Shown piece after piece: positions 29,155 to 39,982 of a stretch of 64,000 bases of DNA. The position numbers were made by a program, and so were the translations under genes. Numbering within the stretch: position 1 is the first letter of the stretch; each line of letters starts with the position of its first letter. The stretch spans positions 1 through 64,000 of the forward strand of contig CAHJWM010000006.1 of NCBI GenBank assembly GCA_903642325.1, written 5' to 3'. This DNA comes from Myxococcales bacterium. GTDB taxonomy: Bacteria > Myxococcota_A > Polyangia > Polyangiales > Polyangiaceae. The notes below the pieces were generated by a model, which worked only from the letters and a program-made list of their open reading frames with translations, was not told the origin of the DNA and searched no databases.

Positions 29155-30444
29155 ATGACCGAAGAGCTCAAGCAAGGATCCAGGCTCGGAAATTACGAGC
29201 TCTTACTGAGGATCGGGCGAGGCGGCATGGCTTCGGTCTGGGTGGCGCGGGAACGAACCGCCACGAGCACGGACGACCGGCTGGTGGCGGTGAAGGTGAT
29301 GCTCACCGAGCTCGCCGACGAGAGCGAGTTCATCAAGATGTTCATGGATGAGGTTCGGCTCGTCCGCAGCATCAGCCACCCGAACGTGGTCGATGTTTAC
29401 GACGTGGGCGAGCACGACGGCATGATGTGGATGGCCATGGAATGGGTCGAGGGCGAATCGCTCCACAGCGTGATCGCGGAGGCCGGCAAGCGGCGGGCAA
29501 TTCCGCCGGAGCTCGCGGTGCGGATCATCGCTGATGCGGCCGCGGGCCTGCACGCTGCACACGAGCTACGGGATGCGGACGGCAGGCTGCGCGGCGTCGT
29601 ACATCGCGATATTTCACCGCACAATATCTTGATTGGCAGCAACGGCATCGTGAAGTTGGTCGACTTCGGAGTCGCGAAGGCCGTCGGTCGGATCAGTGAA
29701 GCGACGCGCGCCGGTCAGCTCAAGGGCAAGTTCGGCTACATGTCCCCCGAGCAAGCGCTTGGTCGCGGCGTCGACCGTAGGAGCGATATCTTCTCGCTCG
29801 GTATCGTGCTCTTCGAGCTCACCACCAGCCGGCGTCTGTTCCGCGGCGAACATGACGTCGAGACACTACGGCTGGTCATTTCGGGCGCCATCCCGAAGCC
29901 CACCGCGATCGACGCGAAATATCCGCTCGAGCTCGAGCGCATCGTGCAAAAAGCGCTGCAACGCACCGTCTCGGCTCGCTACCAGACGGCGGCCGAGCTC
30001 GAGCACGACCTCCGAGCCTACCTCAAATCGGAGCGCTTGATTGTGCCGCAGAGCGGAGTGGCGGCCATCCTCAAGCGCGTGCTCGGTGAACGCATCGAGC
30101 AACGCCGCAAGGCCGTTCGCGCCTCGCTCAAAGCCCTGACTAGTGGCGCGCTTCCGAGCGCGCAACTCCTGCCCAACGATCCGGCGTTTACGCCCACGGG
30201 AAAGGACCGGATCACGGTTAGCGGCATCAGCACCGTAACCGGCACGGGGCTAAGCGGCATAAGTGGCCTCGGCACGAGCGGCACGTCGCCAAGCGCAATC
30301 CTTGGCTCCCCGCTCGTGGACGGCGAGGGCGGCATCCGCCCGAGCGCGCCGCGGCCGCGTTTGAGCACGGCCAGCGTGCTCGGCTACGCAATCGGATTAA
30401 CGGGCCTCGCAATCGCGTTGTTCGTATTGTTATTCATGCGCTGA
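29155..30444 (+). CDS. Membrane-anchored Ser/Thr protein kinase
   Basis: Hanks-type kinase of 429 residues. The catalytic domain (about 14-285) has the Gly-rich loop GRGGMASVWVA, the VAIK-type Lys in AVKVM, the catalytic loop HRDISPHN (about 149-156) and DFG in VDFGVAK, then GYMSPEQALG. HRDISPHN in place of HRDLKPEN is typical of myxobacterial kinases and keeps the essential Asp and Asn. A Ser/Thr/Gly-rich linker (about 330-400) leads to one C-terminal membrane helix (ASVLGYAIGLTGLAIALFVLLF), with almost nothing outside, so it has no sensor domain of its own. ATG start at 29155. Confidence 0.94.
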   Translation: MTEELKQGSRLGNYELLLRIGRGGMASVWVARERTATSTDDRLVAVKVMLTELADESEFIKMFMDEVRLVRSISHPNVVDVYDVGEHDGMMWMAMEWVEGESLHSVIAEAGKRRAIPPELAVRIIADAAAGLHAAHELRDADGRLRGVVHRDISPHNILIGSNGIVKLVDFGVAKAVGRISEATRAGQLKGKFGYMSPEQALGRGVDRRSDIFSLGIVLFELTTSRRLFRGEHDVETLRLVISGAIPKPTAIDAKYPLELERIVQKALQRTVSARYQTAAELEHDLRAYLKSERLIVPQSGVAAILKRVLGERIEQRRKAVRASLKALTSGALPSAQLLPNDPAFTPTGKDRITVSGISTVTGTGLSGISGLGTSGTSPSAILGSPLVDGEGGIRPSAPRPRLSTASVLGYAIGLTGLAIALFVLLFMR

Positions 30445-30510
30445 ACGGGCCGAGAAGGAGTGTGCTTTGCCGGAAGGCGTGCGCTAGGGTGCTTTCCGTC
30501 TCGGGTCATC

Positions 30511-31860
30511 ATGGGCAAGCTCCTCGTCGTCGACGATCAACGCAACATGCGCACGACGCTGGCGATGATGCTCCGTGGCAGCGGCCACGAGGTGGACGAG
30601 GCCGCTGACGGCGCGCAGGGCCGCGAGCTCGGCGCGACTGGCGCGTACGACGTGGTGATCACCGATCTTCGCATGGGAGAGTTCGACGGCATCGACGTGT
30701 TGCGCGCCACGAAAGAAGCGCAGCCCATGACCGAGGTGATCGTGATGACCGCCTACGGCACGATCGAGAGCGCGGTCGAGGCCATGCGGGTGGGCGCGTT
30801 CGACTACATCCAAAAGCCGTTCAGCGAGCAAGAGCTGATCGTCAAAGTTTCGAAAGCCTTCGAGAGCAGGCGGCTACACGGGCAAGTGCAGCTCTTCGCC
30901 CAAGAGTTCAAAGAGCGCTATCACCTGGAGAAGATCATCGGGCGTTCGCAATCCATACGCGACGTGCTGACCCGCGTCGTGAAGATCGCGCCGACCGACG
31001 CCATCGTACTCATCACGGGCGAGAGCGGTACGGGTAAGGAGCTCGTAGCGCGGGCGGTGCACGCCAACAGCAAGCGCGCGCAGCGCCCCTTCGTAACCGT
31101 CAACTGTGCGGCCATCAGCGAAACGCTGCTCGAGAGCGAGCTCTTCGGTCACGCCCGTGGCGCGTTCACCGGCGCCGTCTCGGCGCGCAAGGGCCTTTTC
31201 GAGGAGGCCGACGGCGGCACATTTTTCTTCGACGAGATCGCGGAAACCACGCCGAGCTTCCAGGCGAAGTTGTTGCGCGCCATTCAAGAAGGCGAGGTGC
31301 GGCGTGTAGGCGAAAACAAGCCCATCACCATCGACATCCGCGTAGTCGCGGCCACCAACGTGGACTTGAGCTTGGCGGTCGAAGAGCGCCGCTTTCGCCA
31401 AGACCTGTATTACCGACTGAACGTTGCCCGCTTTCACTTGCCGCCGCTTCGAGAACGCCGCGAGGACATCCCGCTCTTGGCCGAGTTCTTCTTGGACAAA
31501 TACAACCGCAAGATGAATGCCCGCGCCCGACCCGCGGAAGGGGTGATGGATAAGCTCATCGCCTACGACTTTCCTGGCAACGTGCGCGAGCTCGAAAATT
31601 TGATCGAACAGTCGGTTGCGCTGTGTACGGGCGGCGTGATCACGGTCGGGGACGTGCTTCCCGAGGTGCCCCGCAAAGCCGGTCCTACCGCGGGTAAGAC
31701 GCTCGCGGACATCGTGGACGAGTCCGAACGACAGGCCTTGGAAGCGGCTCTCCGTGCCTCGGACGGCAGCCGCGAGCGCGCCGCCGAGGCGCTGGACATC
31801 AGCCCAACCACGCTTTGGCGGAAGATGACCCGGCTCGGGATCACGTTCGAGAATCGCTGA
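30511..31860 (+). CDS. NtrC-family sigma-54-dependent response regulator
   Basis: 449 residues from the ATG at 30511. The receiver domain (1-120) has the DD pair in VVDDQRN, phospho-acceptor Asp in VITDLRMGEFDG (about 53) and Lys in IQKPF. The AAA+ domain carries Walker A GESGTGKE (about 170-177), GAFTGA (about 215-220, contacting sigma-54) and Walker B GGTFFFDEI. The C-terminal Fis-type helix-turn-helix reads RERAAEALDISPTTLWRKM. All activating motifs are intact, unlike the regulator at 61.9-63.3 kb. It lies 66 bp after the kinase gene; its own histidine kinase is not adjacent. Confidence 0.95.
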   Translation: MGKLLVVDDQRNMRTTLAMMLRGSGHEVDEAADGAQGRELGATGAYDVVITDLRMGEFDGIDVLRATKEAQPMTEVIVMTAYGTIESAVEAMRVGAFDYIQKPFSEQELIVKVSKAFESRRLHGQVQLFAQEFKERYHLEKIIGRSQSIRDVLTRVVKIAPTDAIVLITGESGTGKELVARAVHANSKRAQRPFVTVNCAAISETLLESELFGHARGAFTGAVSARKGLFEEADGGTFFFDEIAETTPSFQAKLLRAIQEGEVRRVGENKPITIDIRVVAATNVDLSLAVEERRFRQDLYYRLNVARFHLPPLRERREDIPLLAEFFLDKYNRKMNARARPAEGVMDKLIAYDFPGNVRELENLIEQSVALCTGGVITVGDVLPEVPRKAGPTAGKTLADIVDESERQALEAALRASDGSRERAAEALDISPTTLWRKMTRLGITFENR

Positions 31861-31911
31861 GCCACCGTCCCACCTGGCATAGCGAACACAAACCTGGGAC
31901 CGTGCGCGCCC

Positions 31912-32967
31912 GTGAAGACCGCTGCCTTCGACTACGAGCTGCCCGAGGCGCTGATCGCAAGCCATCCAGCGGAGCGCCGCGACGGCGCGCGATTGTTGAT
32001 CGTGGACGGCCAGCGCCGCGAAGATTCGAGCGTGGACCGCTTGGCCGAGCTGGTTCCAGAGGGAGCTCTACTGGTGCTGAATGACACGCGCGTCCGGCGC
32101 GCACGCGTATTCGGGTCGAAGCAGGGAAGCGGCGGGCGCGTCGAGTTACTCTTCATGCGTCAAATCGAGACCGACGGGCCGGGAAGCGAACGCTGGGAAG
32201 CCATCGGGCGCTCGAGCAAACCACTGCGCGTCGGCTCGCTGATCGCCTGGGACGAGATTCGCTTCGAGATCACCGAGCGAACCGAGGATGGCACGCTGGT
32301 CGTGTCGGTCAGCACGGGCGGGCCAGACTTCGAGGAGATCTTGGCTTCGCGTGGACGGCTGCCGTTGCCGCCTTATATGCGGCGCGCGGATGAGGCAGAC
32401 GATCTGGAGCGTTACCAAACGGTGTACGCGCGCCGGACGGCGTCCGCCGCAGCGCCGACTGCCGGTCTACATTTGACCGCGGCGCTGTTCGAGCGCCTAA
32501 GGGCCCGTGGTGTGCACGTTGCGCGGCTGCAGTTGGAGATCGGCTTGGGCACGTTCCGACCGGTCTCGGCCCAAGCATTGGAGCAGCACCCGATGCATGC
32601 CGAAACCATCGACCTCAGCCCGGAGCTGGTGGCCGCGGTAAGCGCGGCACGGGCTCGTGAAGCCCCGGTCGTCGCCATCGGCACCACGGTGGTCAGGGCC
32701 CTCGAGAGCGCTGCCGATGGGGAGCGCCCTGGCAACGTACGAGCGATGCGCGGCGAAACCAGGCTCTTGATTCAACCGGGTTACCGGTTTCGAGTCGTAG
32801 ACGCTTTGCTGACCAACTTCCACGTGCCGAAGAGCACCTTGATTGCTTTGGTTGCGGCCTTTGCCGGCTACGAGAACACCATGTCCGCTTACCGCCATGC
32901 GGTGCAGGCTGGCTACCGCTTCCTTTCGTATGGCGATGCCATGTGGATCCCGAGGCGGAGCACATGA
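31912..32967 (+). CDS. queA: S-adenosylmethionine:tRNA ribosyltransferase-isomerase
   Basis: Transfers and rearranges the ribosyl group of SAM onto preQ1 in tRNA, making epoxyqueuosine. The 351 residues match the family, with FDYELPEALIASHPAERRDGARLL at the start, LLVLNDTRVRRARVFG, PLPPYMRR, RYQTVYARRTASAAAPTAGLHLT and NFHVPKSTLIALVAAFAG. GTG start at 31912. It overlaps tgt through an ATGA, so the two queuosine enzymes are made together. Confidence 0.97.
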   Translation: MKTAAFDYELPEALIASHPAERRDGARLLIVDGQRREDSSVDRLAELVPEGALLVLNDTRVRRARVFGSKQGSGGRVELLFMRQIETDGPGSERWEAIGRSSKPLRVGSLIAWDEIRFEITERTEDGTLVVSVSTGGPDFEEILASRGRLPLPPYMRRADEADDLERYQTVYARRTASAAAPTAGLHLTAALFERLRARGVHVARLQLEIGLGTFRPVSAQALEQHPMHAETIDLSPELVAAVSAARAREAPVVAIGTTVVRALESAADGERPGNVRAMRGETRLLIQPGYRFRVVDALLTNFHVPKSTLIALVAAFAGYENTMSAYRHAVQAGYRFLSYGDAMWIPRRST

Positions 32968-34073
32968 TTTCTTTTCGAGTCGAGGCCACGTGCGACAACG
33001 CCCGCCTCGGGCTGCTCACTACTTTGCACGGGGAAGTGCGCACTCCGGCCTTCATGCCGGTTGGGACGCAGGCCGTCGTCAAGGGGGTATCGTCTGAAGA
33101 GGTCGGGCAGACGGGCGCCCGAATGCAGATCATGAACACGTATCACCTGTGGCTCCGGCCGGGCCCCGAGCTTATTGCGGAGCTCGGGGGGCTACATGCC
33201 TTTGCCCGTTGGCCGCATGCCATCGTCACCGATTCCGGCGGATTTCAGGCTTTCTCGCTGGCCAAGAACATGCGTGCGAGCGAACAGGGGTTCGAGTTCG
33301 CGTCCCACCTGGACGGCAGGAAGATGATGCTGTCGCCGGAGGAGGCGATGCGCGTGCAGGGGCTACTCGGGTCGGATATCGCCATGCAGCTCGATGTCTG
33401 CCCCCCGGGCGGCTCACCGCGCGCGGAGCTCGTGAAAGCCGTCGAACGCACCACGCGCTGGGCGGAGCGCTGCCTCGCCGCCCGCGCCCCCAAACAAGGC
33501 GTATTCGGGATCGTGCAAGGTGGAACCGATGTCGAGCTGCGACTGTCGCACGTGGACGAGCTGGCCAGGCTGCCCTTCGACGGGCTGGCCTTGGGCGGGT
33601 TCAGCGTGGGCGAACCAATCCCAGACATGTATCGAGCTCTCTCCGTCGTAGGGCCCGCGCTTCCTTCCGGGCGGCCGCGCTACTTGATGGGCGTCGGCAT
33701 GCCGGCCGACATTCTGATCGCGGTCGGCCACGGCATCGACCTGTTCGACTGTGTGATTCCAACGCGCAACGCCCGGAACGGTCAGCTCTTCACCTGGGGC
33801 GGCAAGATCGTGATCAAGAACGCGCGTTATCGCGCTGACCCGCGGCCGCTGGAAGAGGGCTGCGAGTGCGCGGCGTGCCGGGGCGGTTACTCGCGGGCGT
33901 ACCTCAGGCATCTCTACCTTCAGGGCGAAATCTTGGTCTTGCGCCTGCTGAGCGAGCACAACCTACACTTCTACGGCCGACTGATGGCGGCTGCGCGCGA
34001 CAGCGTGGCGCGGGGAGATTTCTCGCCCTGGGCGCATGCAAAACTGGCGTTGTGGGCCGATTCCCCGGGCTGA
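32964..34073 (+). CDS. tgt: Queuine/preQ1 tRNA-guanine transglycosylase
   Basis: Exchanges guanine-34 for preQ1 in tRNAs with GUN anticodons. The ATG at 32964 overlaps the queA stop (ATGA) and is preferred to the GTG at 32943; 369 residues. Landmarks: TDSGGFQAFSLAKN with the catalytic Asp region, QLDVCPPG, GGFSVGEP, the nucleophile segment LFDCVIPTRNARNG, and zinc ligands in CECAACRGGYSRAYLRHLY. Completes the last steps of queuosine insertion together with QueA. Confidence 0.97.
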   Translation: MISFRVEATCDNARLGLLTTLHGEVRTPAFMPVGTQAVVKGVSSEEVGQTGARMQIMNTYHLWLRPGPELIAELGGLHAFARWPHAIVTDSGGFQAFSLAKNMRASEQGFEFASHLDGRKMMLSPEEAMRVQGLLGSDIAMQLDVCPPGGSPRAELVKAVERTTRWAERCLAARAPKQGVFGIVQGGTDVELRLSHVDELARLPFDGLALGGFSVGEPIPDMYRALSVVGPALPSGRPRYLMGVGMPADILIAVGHGIDLFDCVIPTRNARNGQLFTWGGKIVIKNARYRADPRPLEEGCECAACRGGYSRAYLRHLYLQGEILVLRLLSEHNLHFYGRLMAAARDSVARGDFSPWAHAKLALWADSPG

Positions 34074-34190
34074 GCCCCGCCGCTCGAACCCGGCGGCCGC
34101 GAGGCGACGTCCGATACGTGGCTGCGGCGCCGGCGCGAGTGGCGTTTTTCGTGAAGATCGACGCGATCTCGTGGATAATCAAAGTTTCGG

Positions 34191-35687
34191 ATGGGCGACA
34201 AAAAGCAGATCGGCAAAATCCTGCTCCGGCAGCGCGCGCTGAGCCCGGAGCAACTCGACCGCGCGCTCGCAGAGCAGCGCGGCGGTCGGCTGGCGTCGCG
34301 ACTCGCCGCCGAAGGCACGATCAGCGACGTGGCCGCGCTCAAAGCTTTGAGTGAGCAGCATGGCATTCCCGGCATCGACTTGAGTCAAATTTGCCTGAAG
34401 CTCGATGATCTGGAGCTCCTGCCCCGCGACATCGCGGAAAAGCACCTGATCTTGCCCGTGCTGGTGCGCGACGATCGGCTGTTCATTGCGATGGCCAACC
34501 CGCGTGAAACGAAAGTGATCGACGAGCTCGAATTCGTCACCGGCAAAAAGGTCTATCCGTACATAGCGCTCGACGCTGCGCTTGCGCACGTGATCGAGGA
34601 GGCCTACGGGCGCAAGGCTCGCGGTGATAGCTACTACGTCGGCCCGCATTGCCCGCCGGAGGTATTGGCCAAGCTAAATCTGGATTCGGACGGCTCACCG
34701 CTCCAGGTTGGTGAGCCGTCCGGACCACTAGACTTTGGCGGCCTAGAGCAAGCGAACCGCCCGCAGGACGCGCCGGGCCTGGTGGTCGACGACGCCGCAT
34801 CCGAAATCTCGCGCGCCGAAGACATCGAGGAAAGCGACTTCGGAGACACGTCCCGCGAGCTCAGCGTGGTCACGGAGCTTCACGGCGACGGCGCCGCGAC
34901 TGCGCCCACGCCGCGCGAAGATGGGAATGCGAAGACGATCTTGATCGTCGACGACGAGGCAGAGATTCGTAGGATGCTCAACCTCCTCTTGACGCGAAAC
35001 GGCCATCGCGTGCTGGAAGCCGAGCGCGGTCACCAAGCCCTTCGTATGGTGAAAGAGCATGCCCCAGATCTGATCGTGCTCGATGCCATGTTGCCAGAGG
35101 TTCACGGTTTCGAGATCGCGCGCCGCATCAAGGGCAGCCGGCGCTACGGTCACATACCCATCATCATGGTCAGCGCGGTGTATCGCGGCTGGCGCTACGC
35201 AGAAGACCTCAAACAATCGTGCGGCGTAGACCACTTCATCGAGAAGCCGTTTCGCATCGCCGACGTAGTGCAGATCGTCGAAGAGTGCCTGAGCCCAGGG
35301 ACGGAAAAGGTGGAGCGCCCGGACGTTTCTGGGGAAGCCGAGGGGGCCCTAAATGAGGGCGTGGCCGCGTACAAAGCCGGTCGGCTGGACGAAGCAATCC
35401 AGCACTTGAGGCGCGGGGTGAATATCGACCCGCTGGCCTACCGCCTACACTTTCATCTCGGACTACTGTACGGAAAGAAGGGTCAGGTGTACGACGCGAT
35501 CAGCGAGCTGGAAACGGCTGTTAAAATCAACTCGCAGCAGTTCGTGGCCGTAAAAAATCTGGCAATTTTGTACCAAAAGGCCGGATTTCGAAATAAGGCC
35601 GTAGAAACGTGGGAGCGGGCCCTAACTCTAGCTACCGATGACCCAACTCGGCTGTCGATTAAAGAGCACTTGTTGAATCTCCTGTGA
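34191..35687 (+). CDS. MshEN-receiver-TPR signalling protein
   Basis: A 498-residue fusion. Residues 1-150 are the GspE N-terminal/MshEN domain, which in relatives binds cyclic di-GMP through two 24-residue motifs; here QIGKILLRQRALSPEQLDRA and RLASRLAAEGTISDVAALKA correspond, with the motif-I Gly10 replaced by Arg and a shorter spacer. Residues about 245-370 are a receiver domain (IVDDEAEIRRML, phospho-acceptor in VLDAMLPE, Lys in IEKPF). Residues about 385-490 form TPR repeats (KAGRLDEAIQHLRRGV, HLGLLYGKKGQVYDAISELE). There is no ATPase or DNA-binding domain, so it should act by protein contacts. Confidence 0.9.
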   Translation: MGDKKQIGKILLRQRALSPEQLDRALAEQRGGRLASRLAAEGTISDVAALKALSEQHGIPGIDLSQICLKLDDLELLPRDIAEKHLILPVLVRDDRLFIAMANPRETKVIDELEFVTGKKVYPYIALDAALAHVIEEAYGRKARGDSYYVGPHCPPEVLAKLNLDSDGSPLQVGEPSGPLDFGGLEQANRPQDAPGLVVDDAASEISRAEDIEESDFGDTSRELSVVTELHGDGAATAPTPREDGNAKTILIVDDEAEIRRMLNLLLTRNGHRVLEAERGHQALRMVKEHAPDLIVLDAMLPEVHGFEIARRIKGSRRYGHIPIIMVSAVYRGWRYAEDLKQSCGVDHFIEKPFRIADVVQIVEECLSPGTEKVERPDVSGEAEGALNEGVAAYKAGRLDEAIQHLRRGVNIDPLAYRLHFHLGLLYGKKGQVYDAISELETAVKINSQQFVAVKNLAILYQKAGFRNKAVETWERALTLATDDPTRLSIKEHLLNLL

Positions 35688-35767
35688 AAGAGCTTTCGCG
35701 CTCGGGCATTGCTCGGGTTACTCTCCGCAAACTCCAGACCGTTCGTTTTGACGCGGCGCTCAGCTGA

Positions 35768-37654
35768 ATGAAGTTCCTCTGTCCCAGCTGTAAAGCGAAG
35801 TACCAGATCGCCGACGAGAAGGTCGCGGGTCGTTCTGTTCGCATGAAATGCCGCAAGTGCGGCTATGTGATCCAGGTCTCCAGCGTCGCTGGCATGGGGG
35901 ATGCGCTGGCTGGAAGTGAGCCCCCGCCGCCCTCGGCGTTCGACGCGGCGAACGAGGGAGCCCCGGCGCCGCTTGTGCCCGCGTCGTCGCCGGTTGCGGT
36001 GCCCGCGTCGTCGCCGGTTGCGGTGCCCGCGTCGTCGCTGAGCGCCGATTCGGCCGTCGGGGAGATCCCGCCCGCCGCCGAGTTGCCGGAGCCGCCCGCG
36101 ATCCCAGCGCCCCCGCCGAGACCGACCGTCCCACGCGCATCACTGAGCGGCGTTGCCAACCCTGGCGAGATCAAGAAGCCGGTCGCGCCCGTTCGTCCGC
36201 CGCCTTCCGTCGTTAGGCCGAGCACATCGCTTGCGGCCAAGGCACCCGGCGTCGCGCTCAAAGCGGGGCTGCCGGCGAAGCCGCCGGCTCCGCCGTCGAA
36301 AGTTCCGCAGGTCAAGGCGTTTTCGGTGCAGGTCGCGCCGCCCGCACCGTTGCTCGCCGTGGACGCGAAAGCGACGCAAAGCGGTCAGACGGCGCCGCTC
36401 CCGCAGGTTGCACCGAAGCCGAACGTTGCGCCCAGCAACCAAGCGCAGCCGGCCCCCGCTCGTGCGCTTGCCGACGTGAGCGATGTAGATGGGCCCACCC
36501 GCATCGGGGATGTGGGTGCGTTGGCGGGGGCCTTTTCCCTGGCCGTGGGCTCGCCATCCGACGCGCCGCCCGGCGATCCGGCCAGCATGCCGGGCGACGA
36601 GTGGTTCGTCGGCATCAATGGCGTTCCGGTTGGGCCAATTCGTCTGAGTGAGCTGCGGTCGAAAGCGGGCTTGGGCTCGATCAGCCCAGAGTCGCTGGTC
36701 TGGCGTGACGGCTTCGAGGATTGGCGGCCGCTACGAACATTTCCCGAGCTCTTGGCGATCGTCGACGAGAGCTTGTCCAGCATGCGTGCGTCGTTCACGC
36801 CGTTCACACCGCCAGCGGGCGGGACGTTTGGGCCCGCGGGCGCGGTCGAAGGCGCCACGGTTCCACTGCCCGCGGTGGTTCCGGTCACGGCCGATCCGTT
36901 CGCGGGGACGGGCGCGTCGGGCGGCACCGGCGCAGCCGTCATCACCGATGAAGCAGCCGATGCGGGCTACCAGAAGGCAGCCACGTCCTCGTCCGCCGCG
37001 TGGATCGCGGTGGTGATGGCCCTTTTGTTCGGACTCACGATTGGCTTCGTCCTCTTCAAAAACCAGCCCAGTAAAACGATTGAGGTCGTCAAGTATGTGG
37101 ACCGGCCGGTGCCAGGTGCCGCCAGTAACGCGATTGCCGAGACCAACGCCAAGATCACCGCACTGGGCGAAACGACTGTCACCGACAAGGATGTAATCAA
37201 ACACGTTTCAGGCACGACTGCGAAGAGCGCGGGAGCTCCCGCGGCGAGCAGTGAGCCAGATAAAGGTCTGAGCGGCTTGAAGGGCCTGTCGGGCCTCGCC
37301 TCGGGACCGAAGGGGCCGGACGTGTCCGGCCCGTCGAGCGCCGTGCAGGGTACGGGGCAGCTCGACAACGGGCAGCTGCAAGGCACCGTTGCGCGCTACA
37401 CGGGCAGCGTGAAGCGCGCCTGCTGGCAACCTGCGCTCGATACGCGGGACAGAGACGCGCCCACGACGGCTCGCGTGAACGTTGCCATCACCGTGCTGCC
37501 GAGCGGCAGCGTGCAAAGCGCGGCGGTGGGTGCGGATCCAAAAGGGTACCGCGGCCTCGCGCAATGCATTTCGAGCCGCGTGCGCGGCTGGCAATTTCCT
37601 CCTTCTGGGGACAGCACGACGGTCAACGTGCCGTTCGTCTTTGCGGCTCAATAG
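35768..37654 (+). CDS. AgmX/GltJ-like zinc-ribbon, GYF and TonB-C-like protein
   Basis: 628 residues in the order known for Myxococcus AgmX/GltJ gliding proteins. An N-terminal zinc ribbon (C5, C8, C28, C31; MJ0042 type) is followed by a long Pro/Ala linker, a GYF_2 domain (about 278-330, WFVGINGVPVGPIRL...LVWRDGFEDWRPL), one membrane helix (about 411-432, SAAWIAVVMALLFGLTIGFVLF), a Gly/Ser linker and an AgmX/TonB-C-like periplasmic domain (VARYTGSVKRACWQPAL...GWQFPPSG). In GltJ the cytosolic ribbon and GYF parts bind MglA/MglB-type regulators. Paralogues exist in most myxobacteria, so GltJ identity is not proven. Confidence 0.85.
   Translation: MKFLCPSCKAKYQIADEKVAGRSVRMKCRKCGYVIQVSSVAGMGDALAGSEPPPPSAFDAANEGAPAPLVPASSPVAVPASSPVAVPASSLSADSAVGEIPPAAELPEPPAIPAPPPRPTVPRASLSGVANPGEIKKPVAPVRPPPSVVRPSTSLAAKAPGVALKAGLPAKPPAPPSKVPQVKAFSVQVAPPAPLLAVDAKATQSGQTAPLPQVAPKPNVAPSNQAQPAPARALADVSDVDGPTRIGDVGALAGAFSLAVGSPSDAPPGDPASMPGDEWFVGINGVPVGPIRLSELRSKAGLGSISPESLVWRDGFEDWRPLRTFPELLAIVDESLSSMRASFTPFTPPAGGTFGPAGAVEGATVPLPAVVPVTADPFAGTGASGGTGAAVITDEAADAGYQKAATSSSAAWIAVVMALLFGLTIGFVLFKNQPSKTIEVVKYVDRPVPGAASNAIAETNAKITALGETTVTDKDVIKHVSGTTAKSAGAPAASSEPDKGLSGLKGLSGLASGPKGPDVSGPSSAVQGTGQLDNGQLQGTVARYTGSVKRACWQPALDTRDRDAPTTARVNVAITVLPSGSVQSAAVGADPKGYRGLAQCISSRVRGWQFPPSGDSTTVNVPFVFAAQ
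35975..36037 (+). repeat. 24-bp tandem repeat in the AgmX/GltJ-like gene
   Basis: Two perfect 24-bp copies starting GTGCCCGCGTCGTCG, plus a 15-bp partial copy, encode VPASSPVA repeats in the Pro-rich linker. They are in frame and should only change linker length. Confidence 0.9.
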
Positions 37655-37696
37655 CAGGCGCGCGCAACGACACGCTTTCGCTAGCCAAGCTGGGTG

Positions 37697-38098
37697 ACAC
37701 GAGGCTACCCTGCGCTGGCCGCAGCATCTCAGGCGATCGCGCGTTTCTGCGCTGCAGGGCGCGAGGAAAGTCCGGGCTCCGTAAGGCAGGATGCCGGGTA
37801 ACGCCCGGTGAGGGAGACCTCGAGGAAAGTGCCACAGAAATTTAAACCGCCCAGGCCGCTTTGGCGCCCCGGGTAAGGGTGAAAAGGTGGGGTAAAAGCC
37901 CACCGCGCGGCCGGTAACGGTCGTGGCATGGCAAACCCCATCCGGAGCAAGGCCATGTAGAGGAGCGTTCGAGGGCTGCCCGCCCGAGCTCCTGGGTAGG
38001 CCGCATGAGGCGCTCGGTAACGATCGCCCTAGAGGAATGACCGCCAGCACGCATCGGGCAACCGATGCGTGCAACAGAACCCGGCTTACGAGAAGCTA
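37697..38098 (+). ncRNA. rnpB: RNase P RNA, bacterial class A
   Basis: Catalytic RNA that trims tRNA 5' leaders. Conserved blocks appear in order: GAGGAAAGTCCGGGCTCC near 37761, GGGTAAGGGTGAAAAGGTG, AGAGGAATGACCGCC near 38030 and ACAGAACCCGGCTTACG near 38073. A perfect 11-bp hairpin with a GCAA tetraloop (38047-38072) sits just before the last block, as a P19-type helix. I could not pair helix P1, so both ends are approximate. Confidence 0.95.
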
Positions 38099-38102
38099 CG
38101 AC

Positions 38103-38137
38103 CACACCCGACTGGTTCGCCGGTCGGGTGTGTTTTT
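38103..38137 (+). terminator. Intrinsic terminator of rnpB
   Basis: A 13-bp stem, CACACCCGACTGG (38103-38115) with CCGGTCGGGTGTG (38120-38132), closed by a TTCG tetraloop and containing one G-U pair, is followed by five T residues. It is the strongest terminator in the window. Confidence 0.92.
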
Positions 38138-38209
38138 GACGCTTGCCGCCAAGGATGCGGTTCTCATGTGGCCCGGCCCGGGGCGACTGCTCAGGCCGAG
38201 CTGCGCGCG

Positions 38210-39088
38210 TCATGCCGCGTCGTGGATGTCCAACCATCCGTTGCCACGCGACAGCTCGGTGATCTTGGTCTTCAGCTTCTTTTTGGCGCGAGCTTCGAGC
38301 TGGCGGGCGCGCTCGCGCGAAACGCCCAGGCGACGCCCGATTTCCGCCAGGGACATCTCGTCCTCGTTGTCGGCCATTAGGCGATTTTCGACGATGTACC
38401 GTTCGCGCTTGTCCAAACCGATCAGCGCGCTTTGAACCGCTTCCCGAACGTAGCCCCCCACTTCAGAGCCTACCAATCCCTCTTCTTGATTGAGACCGCT
38501 GGCCGTCAGTGTATCACCCAGGGTGGTCCCGGAGTCGTCGTACACTTTTGCATCGAGCGAAACGTCGCGCGCCTCTAAGCGTCGCACCATTGCCGTGACC
38601 TTGGCCTTCGGCACGTCCAACGCCTGGGCCAATAGCTCATCAGCATGGTCACCTTCACCGACCAAGTTGGTGATGCGGACGCGTTCGCGGCGTAGCTTGA
38701 AAAACATCTTAGAGCGCAGCGCGCCCGAGCCGACGCCGACCAGGCTCCAAGAACGGATGATGTGATTGAGGATATAGGCGCGGATCCAATACGCGGCGTA
38801 GGTGACGAAGCGCGTTCCGCGGCTGGTGTCGAACTTCTGCAAAGCATGCACGACGCCGAAATTGCCCTCCGCCACGAGCTCGCCTAGCGGCAGACCGTAG
38901 CGACGGTATTTGAGAGCGATGGCCACGACGTAGCGCAAGTGCGCGCGCACGAGCTCTTCGCGAGCTACTTCGTCCTTGTTCTCGAGCCAGCGTGTCGTGA
39001 GCACGAGCTCCGCTTCGCGCGTCAGTTGGGGGTAAGAGTGGACCGCTGTGATGTAGAACGTCAGAGAGGGGTCGGTTTGACGGGCCAT
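38210..39088 (-). CDS. RNA polymerase sigma factor, RpoH/sigma-32 family
   Basis: A group-3/heat-shock-type sigma-70 factor of 292 residues. Region 2 is clear (LVRAHLRYVVAIALKYRRYG, LVAEGNFGVVHALQKFD, FVTYAAYWIRAYILNHIIRS). The RpoH box is present as RSKMFFKLRRER, close to the canonical QRKLFFNLR. Region 4 has the helix-turn-helix MSLAEIGRRLGVSRERARQLE. Myxobacteria carry several RpoH-like factors (for example SigB and SigC, active in development), so I do not assign the symbol. ATG start at 39088. Single-gene unit, with its end 70 bp from the convergent rnpB terminator. Confidence 0.93.
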   Translation of the reverse strand: MARQTDPSLTFYITAVHSYPQLTREAELVLTTRWLENKDEVAREELVRAHLRYVVAIALKYRRYGLPLGELVAEGNFGVVHALQKFDTSRGTRFVTYAAYWIRAYILNHIIRSWSLVGVGSGALRSKMFFKLRRERVRITNLVGEGDHADELLAQALDVPKAKVTAMVRRLEARDVSLDAKVYDDSGTTLGDTLTASGLNQEEGLVGSEVGGYVREAVQSALIGLDKRERYIVENRLMADNEDEMSLAEIGRRLGVSRERARQLEARAKKKLKTKITELSRGNGWLDIHDAA

Positions 39089-39490
39089 TTACTTCTCAGT
39101 TTCCATTCGCCGAATTCCAGTCCTGCAAAAAAACTCAGCGCGCCCGGCCGCGATCACACGAACAGATCGAAGGCTTGGCTCGCACTTTGACCTACGCTGC
39201 AGATTCCGTCGCGGTTGCGCGAAGATTCTGCGAGCCAATAGTTCGTACGCTGGGCAAGCCCGGCTGGACGTGCGCGCTGATCGCGTTAGGCTTTTGGCGC
39301 GATTGTCCAAGGCGCCAGACACTGTGTCCGCGAATGGCACTACAAAAACGCAACGACTCGATCAGGCGGTGCAGTGGCGGCGAGCGCGCCCTCGACTCAA
39401 GGCGTGGGGCCACGCCGACGGCTGGCCGTGAACCACGGGCGAAGCGCGCTTCGCTCGGCACGGCCGCCGCTTAGTGCCGCGGTGCGACGA
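39089..39490. other. Intergenic gap, 402 bp
   Basis: Lies upstream of the sigma-factor gene and downstream of erpA, both on the minus strand. Short frames here lack protein-like composition or a ribosome site. It should hold the sigma-factor promoter. A run of seven T residues (minus strand, around 39127-39133) lies about 40 bp before the sigma-factor start; no matching stem is clear. Confidence 0.5.
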
Positions 39491-39814
39491 TCAAGCTTGG
39501 AAGGAAGAGCCGCAGCCGCAGGTCCCGGACACGTTGGGATTGCCGAATTTGAAGCCGGAGCCGTGCGCGCCTTCTACGTAATCGATTTCCGTGCCGTCCA
39601 GGTACTGGTAGCTCAGTGGGTCGACGAACAGCTTCACGCCATGTGATTCGAATTGTTCGTCGAGATCCGTCGGCTTGTCCTCGAAGTACAGGTCGTACTG
39701 GAAGCCGGCGCACCCACCGCCCACGACCCGCAAGCGCAGGCCCTGGCCGTCCAAGCCCTCCGACTTCGAAATTTCTTTGACCTTGTCCGCGGCCAGCGTT
39801 GTGATTGAAATCAT
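39491..39814 (-). CDS. erpA: A-type iron-sulfur carrier (ErpA/IscA family)
   Basis: Delivers iron-sulfur clusters to target enzymes. The ATG at 39814, with a GAAGG ribosome site, gives 107 residues, the normal length; an earlier in-frame start adds an implausible Arg-rich leader. The three cluster-binding cysteines are present: C35 in GGGCAGF and C99/C101 in CGCGSSF. VDPLSYQYLDGTEIDYVE is a family hallmark, closer to ErpA than to SufA. Stands apart from other isc/suf genes. Confidence 0.94.
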   Translation of the reverse strand: MISITTLAADKVKEISKSEGLDGQGLRLRVVGGGCAGFQYDLYFEDKPTDLDEQFESHGVKLFVDPLSYQYLDGTEIDYVEGAHGSGFKFGNPNVSGTCGCGSSFQA

Positions 39815-39982
39815 TTGCCTTCGGTTGCCTCCGCGCCGACGCCGACGCGAAGCGCCGTTGGGGCGCTTCGTCATCGAACGACGCGGAAGTATTATAGGCA
39901 CGCGGGCCCGGTCTAGCCAGCGCAAGTCTGCCGCGCAGCCGGTTTTTGCCGTTTCTGCGAGCCTGGGCTCGCGGCGCCCGCG

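Follow-up and report, generated by a model that had tools for sequence, protein, structure and literature searches.

A probable response regulator with MshEN and TPR domains is paired with the gene of a GltJ-like envelope protein in Polyangiaceae and other Myxococcota

The gene at positions 34191 to 35687 of the window, by which we mean the whole 64,000-nucleotide stretch of a Polyangiaceae genome analysed here, encodes what is probably an orphan response regulator that does not bind DNA and serves as a cytosolic adaptor of the GltJ-like envelope protein encoded next to it. This gene pair is kept in nearly all close relatives: in 62 of 65, a gene on the same strand, starting no more than 300 nt downstream, encodes an AgmX/GltJ-like protein with a zinc ribbon, a GYF domain, a transmembrane (TM) helix and a TonB-like tail. 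We refer to the two proteins as the adaptor and the partner, and their features are as follows.

34191 to 35687, + strand: gene of the MshEN-REC-TPR adaptor (open reading frame, Pfam, structure model, relatives)
34191 to 34358, + strand: degenerate MshEN_N subdomain, residues 1-56, four predicted helices (residue counts, secondary structure of the model)
34359 to 34619, + strand: MshEN_C subdomain, residues 57-143, the match to Pfam PF05157 (Pfam)
34938 to 35279, + strand: receiver domain, residues 250-363 (Pfam, residue conservation)
35337 to 35684, + strand: TPR domain, residues 383-498, seven helices in the model (Pfam, structure model)
35768 to 37654, + strand: AgmX/GltJ-like partner, with zinc ribbon (residues 1-38), GYF domain (279-342), TM helix (409-430) and TonB/TolA-like C-terminal domain (534-626) (domain searches, structure model, adjacency in relatives)
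36515 to 36535, + strand: short motif GALAGAF, of the L[AGEST]xxF type, residues 250-256 in the probably cytosolic linker of the partner

The adaptor reading frame runs from an ATG at 34191 to a stop codon ending at 35687 on the + strand and encodes 498 amino acids. Pfam places an MshEN domain at residues 57-143 (E 5e-20), a Response_reg domain at 250-363 (E 3e-23) and TPR repeats from 383 to about 490 (TPR_2, E 2e-13), which bears out the earlier note in its statement that MshEN, receiver and TPR domains lie in one chain. All three domains were present in each of the 36 members of alignment A1, so the three-domain order is not a product of chance. The structure model of the adaptor has a mean pLDDT of 84, with two poorly predicted segments (176-209 and 223-243), both in the linker that connects MshEN to the receiver; a structure search with the whole model returned receivers only, among the matches listed, at Z of about 20-22. 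Despite its poor prediction, this linker holds at residues 185-248 (positions 34743-34934) a consensus stretch, VVDD...DFG..S..LSVV, that is conserved in the family.

The receiver carries all the residues of a response regulator, namely the acidic pocket D254 and D255, the phospho-acceptor D298, S328 and K352. Their retention was counted over 91 distinct relatives, kept from 115 loci at which a single frame encodes both REC and TPR: D254 is found in 85, D255 in 79, D298 in 88, serine or threonine at 328 in 87, and K352 in 87. Two relatives (L136 and L138) retain the gene pair despite a broken receiver, which indicates that phosphorylation is not essential everywhere.

The partner gene (35768-37654) starts 80 nt after the adaptor stop codon. 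Upstream of the adaptor gene lie queA and tgt, with a Ser/Thr kinase and an NtrC-type regulator further upstream; the genes beyond the partner gene are rpoH-like and erpA-like and lie on the opposite strand. No histidine kinase is among the eight genes that were scanned in the interval 29155-39925. In the partner, a long Pro-rich linker containing the GALAGAF motif follows the zinc ribbon and precedes the GYF domain, and the TM helix is our reading of the predicted helix at 409-430. The succession of zinc ribbon, GYF domain, one TM helix and TonB-like tail matches that of Myxococcus xanthus GltJ (AgmX). The best structural match of the partner model was the GYF domain of M. xanthus GltJ in its solved structure (7z3c), followed by TonB C-terminal domains, with a weak match to the GltJ zinc ribbon (7zok) further down. 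The partner is not the gliding equivalog, however: against the NCBIfam GltJ model (NF033761) it scored 86.9 bits, below the cut-off of 450, and no locus of the source genome passed that cut-off, the best being the adaptor-partner locus itself at 49.6 bits. We therefore rejected an identification of the partner as gliding GltJ, so that of the earlier description of an adjoining AgmX/GltJ-like gliding protein the adjacency stands and the gliding identity does not. A link to motility is unproven, and gliding is not indicated by the source genome.

GltJ-like tails are numerous in the source genome: the model of the AgmX/PglI C-terminal domain has 22 matches there, of which 12 exceed its cut-off. 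Three other zinc-ribbon/GYF-like proteins are encoded there as well (L167, C11:64720-64887, − strand; L168, C70:8786-8917, + strand; L169, C6:98962-99120, − strand), and their linkers share the motifs GARNE[SN]SVLFSL and DLFG[AG], unlike the partner of the adaptor.

The adaptor is widespread. Matches were found at E ≤ 1e-40 in 43 of 59 genomes (the source genome and its relatives), at 1e-45 in 55 of 144 genomes of the class, and at 1e-35 in 21 of 131 genomes drawn from the phylum, mostly from the class; the named genomes with full-length relatives are Polyangiaceae, other Myxococcota metagenome-assembled genomes and Sorangium cellulosum strains. A search for the same domain order in other myxobacteria, which the earlier note had suggested, thus succeeded, and the notion that this order is restricted to the source genome was rejected. 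Close relatives were defined by a REC model score of at least 160 bits. Among the three without a recognised pair, the contig of one (L022) ends 227 nt after the adaptor gene, another (L025, the same gene as L185, from a genome of the same family) has a partner adjoining the adaptor in which the zinc ribbon is divergent and short and the GYF domain unrecognisable, and the third (L140) has an adaptor without a partner. The pair is also intact at loci that do not have tgt immediately upstream, such as L011, L016 and L031-L033. Among the matches listed in searches of open-licence PMC papers, none deals with the pair.

The dependence between the two genes appears to run in one direction. A search with the partner profile gave matches in all 59 genomes; because paralogues exist, only strong matches count. 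Sixteen of the 59 genomes lacked the adaptor at 1e-40. Three of these (G011, G016 and G035) match the partner profile only weakly and were set aside; the other 13 were examined. The partner is encoded in every one of them; ten lack an adaptor and three carry a diverged one, in which the receiver is lost (L176) or degenerate (L180 and L182). Since the partner is present without the adaptor in ten of these 13 genomes, the adaptor seems to serve the partner membrane protein as an accessory regulator, and not the reverse. In two genomes of the same genus (G001 and G004, loci L171 and L172) the adaptor is absent and tgt is the next gene upstream of the partner, at distances of 170 and 361 nt. These two loci, with the adaptor absent and the partner kept, constitute a natural experiment for the role of the adaptor.

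Adjacency of the two genes could reflect co-transcription only. A different explanation, which we consider unlikely, is that the protein serves several clients as a scaffold gated by its receiver, and that its pairing with an AgmX-like protein is the use that one lineage has made of an older MshEN-REC-TPR family. It draws on the 26 distant relatives with the same domain order, of which five have the partner and 21 do not, so that a protein of this kind can do other work; several of them adjoin genes that, judged by eye from translations, resemble CarD or nuo. What this explanation leaves unaccounted for is the near-fixed pair in the close relatives.

The MshEN part has suggested other functions. 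Both halves of the fold, MshEN_N and MshEN_C, are recognisable from the PF05157 match and from the predicted helices and strands: the Pfam match itself spans the MshEN_C half only, and sequence matches to 5htl, PilB and PilF begin at adaptor residues 2-7. The closest solved relatives are the N domains of PilB/PilF and MshE. As the adaptor MshEN is closest to PilF and the PilB of pilus systems, and as cyanobacterial receiver proteins interact with PilB (PATAN-REC; PMC9090330), the adaptor might be thought to regulate an ATPase of type IV pili or of type II secretion (PilB/GspE) through its MshEN domain, with the AgmX-like neighbour incidental. We regard this as quite improbable, given that the neighbour is conserved in the close relatives and that the genes scanned around the adaptor in the window include no pil or gsp gene.

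In Vibrio cholerae MshE, c-di-GMP is bound via two 24-residue motifs in MshEN_N (PMC5013675). The adaptor departs from motif I (RLGxx(L/V/I)(L/V/I)xxG...LxxxLxxQ) with Gln for Arg9, Ile for Leu10 and Arg for Gly18, and from motif II with Ala for Gly40 and Ala for Leu54, and the spacer has three residues against five. The earlier note had correctly remarked on the Arg for Gly in motif I and the short spacer; further defects, which it did not list, are the Gln in place of the first Arg of motif I and the two Ala substitutions in motif II. Among the 64 relatives that retain the subdomain, the Arg9 position holds Arg in one, Gln in 32 and Pro in 19 (a Pro that the relaxed pattern of Wang et al. 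2016, PMC5013675, would permit), the Gly18 position holds Gly in 17, and the Gly40 position holds Gly in three and Ala in 59. Other positions are well kept: the Gly11 equivalent and Leu58 in all 64, Leu29 in 62, Leu25 in 60 and Gln61 in 59. Of 87 relatives, 22 have no MshEN_N, a pattern that takes nine changes on the tree; the count leaves out three tree rows starting at a contig edge and may still include rows shortened by frameshift or assembly; for the tree itself, 90 of 94 rows had enough columns. The relaxed motif is missing from the adaptor and present in three of the six other MshEN proteins of the same genome.

Because nearly all relatives have a degenerate MshEN_N or, in 22 of 87, none at all, c-di-GMP sensing by the adaptor is, judged from its sequence, unlikely, and the residue counts and subdomain losses led us to reject a c-di-GMP receptor as the leading reading. 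The proposal that the MshEN domain is a working receptor, and that the protein combines c-di-GMP with phosphorylation signals, is the one to which we give the least chance: its fold is certain, the five well-kept positions belong to the pocket, and Wang et al. (PMC5013675) state both that perfect motif conservation may not be needed and that the MshEN response regulator Bd2402 binds c-di-GMP, but the near-complete loss of Arg9 and Gly40, the relaxed motif unmet here yet found in three MshEN proteins of the same genome, and the repeated absence of the binding subdomain all speak against it. The joining of c-di-GMP and two-component signals imagined in the earlier note is accordingly unsupported, with the binding subdomain degenerate here and deleted in many relatives. 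The MshEN fold of the adaptor is probably the descendant of a c-di-GMP receptor.

Returning to the adaptor as a regulator of its partner, two sequence features were considered as candidate contact sites. The alpha4 segment YRGWR of the receiver (331-335) is unusually conserved, and W334 is present in 71 of 72 partner-linked sequences, the lone exception being L176, which has lost its receiver. It is retained in L126, L136, L138, L180 and L182 despite their broken receiver active sites, on three separate branches of the tree, and it is rarer without a partner (6 of 22 relatives). The tree requires just two changes in the partner link and one in W334. As a single change explains its pattern, W334 is not independent evidence for an interface with the partner, and its association with the partner link is indistinguishable from an effect of common descent. 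We rejected this correlation as independent evidence after an independent-pairs test, which gave one to two usable pairs.

The second feature is the linker motif. L[AGEST]xxF occurs in 53 of 65 linkers of partners with an adaptor, against 5.0 expected by shuffling, and is missing from the other 12. It occurs in three of nine linkers of partners without an adaptor (ten less L173, which has no recognised GYF domain), and is absent from those of both congeners that lack the adaptor; the difference between partners with and without an adaptor gives a Fisher p of 0.005 with relatedness ignored. Since three of the nine linkers without an adaptor carry the motif, it is only suggestive as an adaptor-specific docking site.

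We propose that the partner would have its zinc ribbon, Pro-rich linker and GYF domain in the cytosol, a single helix in the membrane and its TonB/TolA-like domain in the periplasm. The TPR and MshEN folds of the adaptor may be docking modules, and the adaptor would dock on the cytosolic part of the partner, roughly residues 1-405, through its TPR domain, MshEN_C or the alpha4 face of the receiver. Phosphorylation of the receiver by some kinase would alter the alpha4 face around W334 and, as the usual switch, this altered face would control docking on the cytosolic part, with the partner presumably passing the signal state on to the envelope and periplasm. More tentatively, the locus may represent a two-gene module of Polyangiales and their kin, in which a phospho-switchable adaptor, carrying the fold of a former c-di-GMP receptor as a docking module, acts on a GltJ-like protein that in other genomes functions on its own, the contact being made between the Trp patch of alpha4 and the LxxxF motif of the linker; this fuller version is possible rather than probable.

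The adaptor and its partner combine two known kinds of protein in a variant form: a receiver adaptor of the orphan type and a GltJ-like envelope protein. In M. xanthus, AglZ and FrzS are cytosolic proteins with a receiver and a coiled coil that act on the motility machinery and not on DNA, and AglZ contacts GltJ; they differ from the adaptor in having a coiled coil instead of TPR repeats, and they are not known to carry MshEN. The FrzS receiver (2nt3) is among the structural matches of the adaptor model. The MshEN domain of Xanthomonas XpsE (GspE) docks on the inner-membrane protein XpsL. XpsE is a secretion ATPase, whereas the adaptor has no ATPase domain, and the XpsE MshEN (PDB 2d27/2d28) is a weak sequence match to that of the adaptor (E 2e-4); it has lost c-di-GMP binding (PMC5013675). 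The same source describes Bdellovibrio bacteriovorus Bd2402 and further MshEN-REC proteins, in which, as in the adaptor, MshEN is joined to a receiver; compared by description, Bd2402 is reported there as a tight c-di-GMP binder, whereas the adaptor has degenerate motifs and added TPR repeats.

The interest of the locus is in the gene pair rather than in c-di-GMP, and a Pfam MshEN match alone, which here covers the MshEN_C half only, is not evidence of a c-di-GMP receptor. GltJ-type proteins with a zinc ribbon, a GYF domain and a TonB tail are numerous in the phylum, and we know of no inputs to them outside gliding; a conserved pairing of a receiver protein with a GltJ-type gene is a direct handle on such inputs, and cultured hosts (Sorangium cellulosum strains) make the pair testable. 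In M. xanthus, the MglA switch acts on GltJ. If the two-gene module is real, these bacteria would have a GltJ-type machine that takes a two-component input, either in place of the MglA switch or in addition to it.
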